In this document: positions 53,872 to 57,720 of the stretch, piece after piece
Layout of the letters: every line of letters starts with the position of its first letter
Position numbering within the stretch: the stretch's first letter is position 1
The notes under the pieces: model-generated
The model's input: only the letters and a program-made list of their open reading frames with translations
The model's database searches: none
What the model was told of the DNA's origin: nothing
Origin: Coleofasciculaceae cyanobacterium
Lineage (GTDB): Bacteria > Cyanobacteriota > Cyanobacteriia > Cyanobacteriales > Xenococcaceae
NCBI GenBank assembly: GCA_036703275.1
Contig: DATNPK010000016.1
Location: 1 to 64,000 of the forward strand
Length of the DNA stretch: 64,000 nucleotides
Reading direction: 5' to 3'
Program-made: the position numbers and the translations under genes

Positions 53872-54915
53872 ATGGAACATAATTCAATAGATTTTTCGAG
53901 TCTGCTACAGCAGCTATTAGATAGACAATCACTGTCTCAATCTCAAGCTGCACAATTAATGGAAGGATGGTTGCGATCGCAAATTCCTGCCGTATTGTCT
54001 GGAGCAATTCTGGCAGCTATTCAGGCAAAAGGAGTTACTGCCGAAGAATTAGCAGGAATGGCGCAGGTGCTTAAATTTCAATCTTTACAACAACAAAACA
54101 TTAGTTATGATTATCCTGTTATCGATACCTGTGGCACTGGCGGGGATGGTGCTTCTACCTTTAATATCTCAACCGCAGTAGCCTTTGTTGCAGCAGCAGC
54201 AGGCATAAATGTGGCTAAACATGGTAATCGTTCTGCCTCCAGCAAAGTTGGTTCAGCAGACGTTTTAGAATATCTCGGCGTTGACCTCAATGCTGCACCA
54301 GAAAAAGTCAAAGCGGCGGTGGATCGAGTGGGGATTACCTTTCTTTTTGCCCGTGGCTGGCATCCTGCAATGAAGAGCGTTGCACCTTTACGCAGCACCC
54401 TCAAAATTAGAACCGTATTTAATCTTTTAGGTCCTTTGGTAAATCCTCTCTGTCCGACTGGTCAAGTAATTGGAGTCTATGACAGCGCCTTTCTTGACAG
54501 CATGGCAAAAGCTTTGAATCTGCTCAATATTTCTAATGCTATGGTGATACACGGTCGAGAAAACCTGGACGAAGCAGGATTGGGTGATGTTACAGACTTG
54601 AGTATGGTTAATAATGGTAAAGTCAGTTCAGGAATTCTTAATCCTCAAGCTTTAGGTTTAAAACCTGCCTCTGTTAGCGAACTAAAAGGAGGGGAAGTTG
54701 AGGAAAATGCCGCTATCTTACGCAACGTACTACAGGGAAAAGGAACATCTGCACAACAAGATGCTGTAGCTTTGAATGCTTCTCTTGCTTTACAGGTAGG
54801 GAAGCTTGTACCTTTTGGCGATCATCTTAAGGGAGTAGTTATTGCCAAAGAGGTGATGGGCAGTGGGGCAGCCTGGTCTAAGTTAGAAGAGTTGGTCAAG
54901 TTTCTCAAGAAATAA
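53872..54915 (+). CDS. trpD: Anthranilate phosphoribosyltransferase
   Basis: A 347-residue enzyme of tryptophan synthesis that joins anthranilate and PRPP. The PRPP site is [19 protein letters not shown] and the anthranilate site is [40 protein letters not shown] is also conserved. Length is normal. It diverges from the pentapeptide gene 109 bases away. Confidence 0.95.
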
Positions 54916-55100: not shown

Positions 55101-55670
55101 ATGGCTATAAAAAATCGAAAAACTACCTTTGGGTCTAGTTTTAGTCGTTCCTTTTGTTTTGCAAATTTTTGCTGCGGTAGGATTGACGGGCTATTTATCG
55201 GTGCGTAACGGACAAAAAGCGGTTAAGGATCTGGCTACGCAACTGCGAGGGCAAGTTAGCGATCGCGTCGGTCAGCATTTAGACCGCTATTTAGCTTTAC
55301 CCCATCAAATCAATCAAATCAACGGCCAGGCGATCGAACAGGGGTATTAATCGATGTTAGCAATTTACGTGGCTTTGGTCGCTATTTTTGGCAGCAAATG
55401 CACGTTTTTGAAGACTTCGGCTACATTAATTTTGGTAATTCTCAAGGTGACTTTGTCGGAATTAATCGCAATGATGATAATAGTCTACGCCTCGATTTTA
55501 TCGAACAAGCTTATTTGGGAGAATACCACGGTTACGCCACAGACGATCGCGGTAATCCTACCCAACGAGTTATTGTCGATGAATTTGATTTTCGAGTCGA
55601 TAGTTGGTATACAGATGCGGTCAAAGCTAGTCATCCTTTGTGGAGTGAAATCTATACTTGGGATGATGAT
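55101..55670 (+). pseudogene. Cache-type sensor, 5' part, broken
   Basis: ATG at 55101 opens MAIKNRK, then one extra A in an A-run shifts frame. The sensor start continues as LVLVVPFVLQIFAAVGLTGY with a membrane helix and DRVGQHLDRYLALPHQINQI. A second frameshift near 55345 leads into GFGRYFWQQMHVFEDFGYIN and ends at SHPLWSEIYTWDDD. These are the helix and periplasmic Cache domain of cyanobacterial sensor kinases and GGDEF proteins. The rest of the Cache domain, the second helix and the output are missing. The group II intron starts exactly after codon WDDD. Confidence 0.85.
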
Positions 55671-56459
55671 GTGCGACTCGTTTCAGTCTAACTACATCTT
55701 GTAGGAACGCTGAGGGTATTATCTAGAACCTAGAAAATACAATAACTCTAAATTCATGTAGGTTTAATTCCTACCGACGAATGAGACGTTTGAATCCATA
55801 TCCTATGTGCTGTTAGATAACATCATAGTGGTGCAGAGCTAGGATAAAAGCAGATAGCTAATAGCCGAATTTGGTAACTCTGCAAGGGAAGTTGTTTAAG
55901 TTCAACAAAGTCTAACTAATTTTACAATATCTTCGTCAAGTTAAAGTAGTGTAACGGCTTAATACACTACTGCCAAAAGGCAACAGAGGTACGTATTTCT
56001 TTTAGAGTTGGAAGAAATAAAAAGAATATTAAGATTCTTCTTCTTGATATTTTCTCATCATTATACCTCTGGGAGTATAGATTAGGGACTAAGAACAACG
56101 CGAAATGAAGTTAGGGAACGGGATAACCCCATATTTCTATCAAGACACCCTTGATAAACCAGATGTGAAGCGTATGAAATATGGGAGTAGGATGCTGTAA
56201 AAAGCCAATGCTTAACCTGAATTAACAGGTAACGCCCGACAGGGATGGATGTAATGTCTGAGATATGCTGACGTGCAGCCGTGAGTGTAGTAGGGAAATA
56301 AGTAGTTCTTAATGACTAATACAGCATCGAATCGATGATTGTGGTTTATAGAACAAAATATAAAGTACCGAAAAGCCAGAAGGAGCCGTGTGCGGTGAAA
56401 GTCGCAAGCACGGTTTTGAATGGGAGTGTCAGAGGGCGACCTCTGGCTCGACCCCTAAC
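55671..56459 (+). ncRNA. ORF-less group II intron
   Basis: The 5' end GTGCGACTCG (55671) fits the GUGYG intron start. Domain V is GAGCCGTGTGCGGTGAAA then GTCGCAAGCACGGTTT (56383-56416), with the AGC-type triad position, GAAA loop and closing pair intact. Domain VI follows with TCAGAGG/CCTCTGG arms and a bulged A before ACCCCTAAC at the 3' end (56459, AY end). At 789 bases there is no room for an intron-encoded protein, and none is readable, so splicing or movement would need a maturase from another intron. Both exon edges fall on codon boundaries. Confidence 0.9.
56383..56416 (+). ncRNA. Group II intron domain V
   Basis: The catalytic hairpin, with stem AGCCGTG/CACGGTT, a two-base bulge and a capped GAAA loop. 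It is the most conserved part of group II introns. Confidence 0.92.
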
Positions 56460-57141
56460 ATACCGATAATATTTATTACAGCTTTAGGAGATACAGAAGA
56501 TAAAGTTAAAGGCTTGTCTTTGGGAGCAGTTGATTATATTACTAAACCATTTACAATTACAGCTACTATGCAAAAAAATCATTTACCAAAACCAAAAATT
56601 AGCCAAAGCCAATCGACAATTGCAATATCTAGTTAATTTTGATGGCTTAACTCAAGTTGCCAATCGTCGTCATTTTGATCGATATTTAGAGCAAGAATGG
56701 AATAGGTTGCAAAGATCACAGCAACCACTATCTTTAATTTTGTGCGATATTGATTATTTTAAAAACTATAACGATTACTATGGTCATCAAGCAGGAGATG
56801 ACTGTTTGCAAAAAGTAGCTCAAGCTTTAAAAAATGCAGTCAAGAGATCCGCAGATTTAGTTTGTCGTTATGGTGGAGAAGAATTGGTGATTATTTTACC
56901 CAATACCGATTTAACAGGAGCAGTTGAAATAACTCAACTAATTCAGTTGGCAATTAAAGAACTTAAACTGGTTCATGCTCATTCTCCTATTAGTAAAAAT
57001 ATTACGCTTAGTTTGGGTATTAGCTGCGAAATTCCCCATTCACAATCTTCAATTAAGTTCTTGATTAATGCTGCCGATACTGCTTTATATAGAGCTAAAA
57101 AACAGGGAGGCGATCGCTATCATCTGTTTAAAATAGATTGA
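56460..57141 (+). pseudogene. REC-GGDEF protein, 3' part, broken
   Basis: The exon begins IPIIFITALGDTEDKVKGLS, the second half of a REC domain, and reaches DYITKPF. A frameshift near 56560 then separates it from KLAKANRQLQYLVNFDGLTQ and a complete GGDEF domain. The signature is CRYGGEELVIILPNTD, with GGEEL in place of GGEEF. The N-terminal half of REC is missing. An internal start near 56530 could express the GGDEF domain alone. It resembles the intact protein at 47145-48548. The Cache exon and this REC exon do not belong to one normal protein, so the pair looks chimeric. Confidence 0.8.
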
Positions 57142-57285: not shown

Positions 57286-57720
57286 TTACTTTGTTTCTAT
57301 TACTTGAGTCAACCGCTCAATAGCACCTGTAAGCCTTTCTTGGGCTAAAATATTAGCTTCAGGCGCTTCTTCTTCAGCTAATGCTTCCTGACGGATGATC
57401 CGCTTTTTTGCTTTTTCAAATGCTTGCACCAAGACATAAATACAAAAAGCAATTACTAAAAAGTTAAGCACGGCTGCTAGAAACAAACCATACTGAATTC
57501 CCCCAGCCGATAATTCCGATAATCTGTTTACTCCTGCAGCTTTCATTGCGGGATTCAAAATGGCGGGCGTGATAATATCCCCCACCAAAGAATCAACAAT
57601 TTTACTAAATGCTGCACCGATAATTACTGCAACAGCCAGGTCAACAACATTACCGCGCATAATAAAGTCGCGAAAGCCAGACAAAAATCCGCCTGCTGCT
57701 TGTGTTCCTCTTCTAACCAT
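57286..57720 (-). CDS. mscL: Large-conductance mechanosensitive channel
   Basis: A 144-residue MscL with two membrane helices. The pore-helix signature RGNVVDLAVAVIIGAAFSKI VDS is present, then a periplasmic loop and GLFLAAVLNFLVIAFCIYVL. I chose the start MVRRGTQAAGG at 57720; a longer frame to 57756 adds a 12-residue unconserved stretch. It releases osmotic pressure on down-shock, complementary to glucosylglycerol turnover. Confidence 0.93.
   Translation of the reverse strand: MVRRGTQAAGGFLSGFRDFIMRGNVVDLAVAVIIGAAFSKIVDSLVGDIITPAILNPAMKAAGVNRLSELSAGGIQYGLFLAAVLNFLVIAFCIYVLVQAFEKAKKRIIRQEALAEEEAPEANILAQERLTGAIERLTQVIETK

Follow-up and report, generated by a model that had tools for sequence, protein, structure and literature searches.

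A complete ORF-less group II intron at the seam between halves of two sensor-operon genes in a cyanobacterial genome

The window analysed here is a stretch of 64,000 nucleotides (positions 1 to 64,000 of the forward strand of contig DATNPK010000016.1) from the Coleofasciculaceae cyanobacterium assembly GCA_036703275.1, a 5.6 Mb draft in 116 contigs with a listed completeness of 100. Two intact genes in the window, trpD (anthranilate phosphoribosyltransferase; positions 53872–54915, plus strand, an ORF of 347 aa) and mscL (an ORF at 57286–57720, minus strand), stand about 2.4 kb apart; both names are putative family assignments. The space between them holds, on the plus strand, what is left of a gene for a dCache hybrid histidine kinase (55111–55670), a complete ORF-less group II intron (55671–56459) and the remnants of a REC-GGDEF gene, which comprise the second half of the receiver (REC) domain (56460–56552; IPIIFITALGDTEDKVKGLSLGAVDYITKPF) and the GGDEF domain with the rest of the gene as far as its former stop codon (56584–57141).

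The intron is recognized by domains V and VI (56381–56459, plus strand), which score 50.9 bits with the Rfam model RF00029 (gathering score 40), and its borders are set by the ends common to six full-length copies in the genome, giving a length of 789 bp. A first, sequence-only reading of this DNA had placed a group II intron at the seam of two gene halves, and in this it was correct. Bacterial group II introns have conserved 5′ GUGYG and 3′ AY ends. All six full-length copies start with GTGCGAC, and five of them, including the window copy (CCCTAAC), end in CTAAC and one, on contig C60, in CTGAC; when the 5′ ends from 13 distinct sites are aligned, GTGCGAC stands at the start of all 13. The intron RNA folds better than 20 of 20 shuffled sequences (z −5.3). 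No long ORF or reverse transcriptase is present within 55671–56459 in the ORF list of the window. The group II maturase domain PF08388 has 10 matches elsewhere in the source genome, so that a helper protein acting in trans is plausible for this intron, and the best RNA similarity is common to two of these matches (L122 and L123).

Other copies of the intron, a point raised in the same reading, were looked for and found: a DNA search of the source genome gave 18 matches, of which six are full length and 12 partial, the two weakest scoring below 53 bits. The other full-length copies (on contigs C111, C25, C11, C60 and C15) are 83–87% identical to the window intron, and the family is present in 11 of 60 neighbourhood genomes, the source genome included. 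Two full-length copies that lie within genes were checked, in a tnpB gene (C25) and in a PAS gene (C60), and in both the two exons come from one gene. The C25 copy (L003) and a copy at the end of C108 (L010) are inserted in phase 0 at the zinc-ribbon end of TnpB-like genes with a Cas12f1-like TNB domain, and the joined flanks of the former match the TNB domain across the intron site. The C60 copy (L005) is likewise in phase 0, and since its joined flanks give a single PAS-like match, this intron may be spliced within a working gene. On C34 (L007, L012) one copy begins inside the domain IV region of another, and on C68 (L009, L014) two intron 3′ ends lie side by side; these nested and tandem copies look like twintrons. 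In two genomes of the genus (L104, G012:C127; L107, G009:C4), the same 5′ flank adjoins copies that end after 92 and 333 bases, respectively, and this intron is an insertion shared by the two.

The 5′ exon was delimited by tblastn in two frames, and by alignment, with the intact 940-aa kinase of a member of the same genus (G002), and it corresponds to approximately residues 12–200 of that protein, the domains of which are dCache, HAMP, HisKA, HATPase and REC. A 99-aa fragment of the exon is 77% identical to the G002 kinase over 99 residues. This fragment alone has no Pfam match and is called Cache because the dCache_1 match of the intact kinase spans that part. The exon ends in TGG GAT GAT GAT, in phase 0 of the ancestral frame, and in intact homologues the border falls after TWDDD and before PSI. 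The homologous Cache frame contains a stop codon at 55108–55110, has no start codon where one is expected and none after that stop, and is broken again between about 55308 and 55371. The earlier identification of a Cache exon is thus upheld by the identity to the intact kinase, and the ATG at 55101 does not open the Cache frame, in view of that stop.

The 3′ exon starts with ATA CCG ATA, also in phase 0 of the ancestral frame and directly before the IPIIF of the receiver in intact homologues; both exon borders therefore lie on codon boundaries, as had been read from the sequence. Its description as half a REC domain plus GGDEF is likewise borne out. The first part aligns with positions 71–100 of 111 of the Response_reg model at 27.7 bits, a score below the curated 30.2, and is matched in tblastn by the REC-GGDEF proteins of G002 and of a genome from the same family (G019). 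The second part matches PF00990 with 189 bits and is 84% identical to the REC-GGDEF protein of G019, to which the 3′ exon aligns best. A tally of REC-GGDEF matches at E 1e-70, in which up to 30 candidates per genome were scored, counts at least two genomes, with the source genome and G019 among the matches listed and the G002 gene outside it. A 38-bp loss relative to G019, located by alignment between CATTT repeats (56547–56548), breaks the frame between REC and GGDEF, and a 203-codon ORF with a TTG start (56530–57141) still spans the GGDEF domain. An 82-codon ORF (56388–56636) joins the intron end in frame with the receiver remnant. The tblastn match, too, runs 49 bases into the intron, the final codons of which resemble the receiver sequence before IPIIF; we think that this likeness is due to chance.

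Because both exons carry frame breaks, splicing cannot yield a whole Cache-GGDEF fusion. No frame in the spliced RNA runs from the start through GGDEF, and the longest frame across the junction (195 codons from stop to stop) includes neither the N-terminal membrane part nor the GGDEF domain. Splicing had been expected to give an in-frame, nonsensical fusion; the frames do agree at the junction and break elsewhere, and a functional spliced product was accordingly rejected. The locus is now a pair of pseudogenes, and the seam is therefore without likely use.

The two halves had been taken to be unrelated, a view that comparison with relatives overturns. In G002 the kinase gene is followed on the same strand, after 21 bp, by a REC-GGDEF gene of 314 aa. 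G019 has the same order with a spacing of 24 bp, its kinase gene being cut short near a contig end, and in Aliterella atlantica CENA595 genes of 924 and 348 aa overlap by 4 bp; the pair is also adjacent in G009, as judged by tblastn. The truncated G019 kinase (L063, 11700–11932, at the end of G019:C41) is cut near its sensor part; no intron was matched at the Cache site at this contig end, and the gene is interrupted by non-intron sequence. A contig scan for relatives found two, Aliterella atlantica and a Scytonematopsis MAG, both cyanobacteria. At three loci with a related sensor (L065, L066 and L132) the same-strand order was not found: L065 has a REC-GGDEF gene nearby on the other strand, and no REC-GGDEF match was obtained at L066. 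The order of kinase followed by REC-GGDEF is thus recurrent, though not universal.

The two border sites are separated by 2493 bp in G002 and by 2447 bp in Aliterella. Measured against these relatives, the seam amounts to a loss of about 2.45–2.49 kb, from the middle of the first gene to the middle of the receiver of the second, with the intron in its place; given that the halves are the 5′ and 3′ parts of adjacent, co-directional genes of one operon, the deletion is local. The lost kinase stretch was sought in the source genome with a 230-aa query that runs from just after the Cache site to HAMP, short of the common HisKA, HATPase and REC domains. The best match had 39% identity and covered part of the query.

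Outside the operon, trpD orthologues with 78–91% identity occur in the 12 other members of the genus and mscL orthologues in eight of the 12. Both genes were detected in nine of the 13 genus genomes. They are neighbours in two of the nine, the source genome and G012; three have them on a single contig at a large distance, and four on separate contigs. G012, whose trpD (91%) and mscL (93%) are the most similar within the genus, has 79 bp between the two stop codons and lacks the entire sensor operon (G012:C13, L094, 5883–5967). This spacer is similar to the 3′ end of the GGDEF gene and to the sequence beyond it, a likeness that is consistent with loss of the operon in G012; gain in the source genome is also possible. 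Two more trpD-like genes of the source genome (G000:C6:3527–4582 and G000:C4:5508–6332) are 58% and 65% identical to the trpD of the window.

Pairing between intron and exons was examined with the help of the other copies. EBS2 (AGTTA, 55939–55943, plus strand) was assigned from covariation with exon positions −13 to −9 in those copies; in the register chosen by the scan, it pairs at 5/5 positions in seven of nine copies, at 2/5 in the window copy and at 0/5 in C111. A probable EBS1 (TTCTTC, 56038–56043, plus strand) lies in a hairpin loop and forms four of six pairs with exon positions −6 to −1 of the window. At the best register EBS1 pairing is complete in C111, C15, C34a and G009a, and in another register in C60 as well; C25 and C11 reach at best 5/6, and G009b is too short. 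Outside the loop, in a stretch common to other copies, the window intron contains a 6/6 complement to exon positions −7 to −2 (TCATCA). An early EBS1 candidate near intron positions 45–55 was discarded when it gave no covariation in the scan. A probable EBS3 (T at 56078, plus strand; alignment column 517, the best column of a scan) pairs with the A that opens the 3′ exon, and this column pairs in seven of seven copies, the window copy included, with one G-T pair. The intron of the window is thus a poor match to its 5′ exon and fits the first base of its 3′ exon; these are the pairings that the sequence-only reading had proposed to check.

A target signature emerges from 13 distinct 5′ exons, the window's counted: T at −18 is present in 10, A at −17, T at −16 and A at −15 in nine each, and A at −8 in 12. 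The Cache site has all five signature bases. Of the four bases from −18 to −15, only two are present at the G019 and G002 receiver sites, which have C at −8, and the EBS sequences pair no better with them (3/5 and 3/6 for G019, 2/5 and 2/6 for G002), the ancestral sequence being lost. We read the Cache site as a real target of the intron family and the resident EBS2 as probably stemming from another insertion, a reading drawn from few bases; the poor EBS2 fit could also come from insertion at a poor site, as the value of 0/5 in C111 illustrates. Since the window copy does not fit its 5′ exon or either of the two receiver sites (G019, G002), the pairing is not decisive evidence.

Intact relatives of either exon carrying the intron, which would have been the parents of the seam, were not encountered. 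Pieces of the operon are present at none of 52 other intron-bearing or maturase loci, where the only tblastn match was to a kinase-like gene of 27% identity at L104 and L107. The two junctions were sought as sequence patterns in 388 genomes that were drawn from a larger set within the order. When one mismatch was allowed, the pattern from Cache to intron was found exactly in the source genome and once, with one mismatch, in G226, where there is no intron sequence and the match is due to chance; the pattern from intron to receiver was found in the source genome only. This absence of the intron at either parental site is compatible with parental copies that have been lost. A mosaic test on the window copy was significant at p ≤ 0.001 for four of 56 parent triplets. 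When eight copies were run as a control, three of 42 triplets were positive for the window copy, two of 42 for C11 and three of 42 for G009a, with none for the other five, and after removal of the domain VI stem nothing was detected in any of the eight. The test was therefore set aside as proof of recombination, the signal coming from the domain VI stem and appearing in control copies too.

We hold with moderate confidence that two intron copies in the same direction in adjacent genes recombined, with the loss of about 2.5 kb. The genes for the dCache hybrid histidine kinase and the REC-GGDEF diguanylate cyclase, members of one operon, would each once have carried the intron, the first after the DDD codons of the Cache domain and the second before the IPIIF of the receiver. 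The copies would then have undergone homologous recombination, which removed the intervening DNA and left one full intron between two half genes. If the crossover was upstream of EBS2, the resident EBS2, EBS1 and EBS3 would all derive from the copy in the second gene, which would account for the misfit of EBS2 with the 5′ exon. We infer both the existence of two copies and their recombination; for borders that are exact on both sides, recombination of two same-direction copies is the simplest route. Recombination between two copies with deletion of the DNA between them had also been the proposal of the sequence-only reading, and the full intron at the exact seam and the other copies in the genome speak for it; what has changed is that the genes were not unrelated and that the loss was only local.

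It is unlikely, and still the strongest of the alternatives, that the operon only ever contained a single intron, at one site or the other, and that the adjoining 2.5 kb was removed by a deletion or by an aberrant retrotransposition that joined the intron cDNA end to a distant upstream end. One copy is all that is seen in the operon, its 5′ exon has the target signature at the same time as EBS3 fits the 3′ exon, poor EBS2 pairing recurs in C111, and the 38 bp gone from the 3′ exon mark the locus as prone to deletion. Such a history nevertheless asks that the second breakpoint coincide by chance with a terminal base of the intron, at its start or its end, or else invokes a process with no direct precedent in the family. 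A further idea is that the deletion came first, fusing the genes in frame at DDD/IPIIF, and that the intron entered the fused gene afterwards. In its favour, the phase-0 position of both borders would have kept the reading frame of such a gene intact across the junction. Against it, the insertion must have struck exactly the base at which the genes were fused, the fit of EBS2 to the 5′ exon is poor, and no fused gene was noticed in relatives in the course of searches not dedicated to it. We regard this sequence of events as improbable.

Equally improbable is a false join, in which the 116-contig assembly would have merged two intron copies. Contigs do end inside intron copies (C108, C64, the start of C111, C34, C70 and C68). 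The window intron, however, differs by 13–17% from the other full-length copies, with 83 bp as the longest exact stretch shared, and a false join predicts that the middle of the kinase lies elsewhere in the genome, where the 230-aa piece has no close match. No contig end bearing an intron has pieces of the operon, and the listed completeness of the genome also speaks against an artefact.

If two copies did recombine here, the locus offers a clean natural case in which an intron seam is explained through the order of operon genes in relatives, and it indicates that the central part of an operon can be deleted through a mobile intron with an exact, in-phase junction left behind. It also carries a warning for annotation, as the seam, by way of its 82-codon ORF, can pass for a short response regulator. 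A far more speculative thought, to which we give little credence, is that recombining ORF-less introns that favour phase-0 sites are a working form of exon shuffling in cyanobacteria, with this locus as a failed trial caught after decay. Were that true, deletion between introns in neighbouring genes would in one step create an in-frame junction and keep an intron that can be spliced, and new fusions of sensor and output domains could be tested without a harmful break.

The closest parallels come from other cyanobacteria. In Thermosynechococcus elongatus, a single ABC transporter pseudogene is described as split between two introns, its 5′ segment forming the 5′ exon of TeI4f and its 3′ segment the 3′ exon of TeI4g, and exon-shuffling homologous recombination between two ancestral introns was proposed for this (Mohr et al., 2010; PMC2882425). 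By that description, the introns resemble ours in that they are cyanobacterial group II introns present in many copies, one branch of which lacks ORFs (PMC2882425). The outcome differs: in T. elongatus the halves of one gene are parted between two introns, whereas here the halves of two neighbouring genes are joined by one, in a local deletion. The twintrons and ORF-less introns described for Trichodesmium (PMC4649490) are cyanobacterial introns within introns, an arrangement that C34 and C68 appear to share. Literature searches on Wolbachia introns and on exon shuffling showed no such seam among the entries listed. For the deletion itself there is an engineered counterpart, in that recombination between two targetrons deleted a two-gene operon (2 of 648; Jia et al., 2011, as cited in PMC3792343). 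There, as proposed here, group II intron copies in the same direction recombine and the DNA between them is lost, but the targetron copies were identical and made in the laboratory (PMC3792343), while the recombination at the seam in the window would be natural and is deduced from its product. The seam thus most likely adds a natural example, in genes that have since decayed or were decaying, to the recombination proposed earlier for introns of cyanobacteria.
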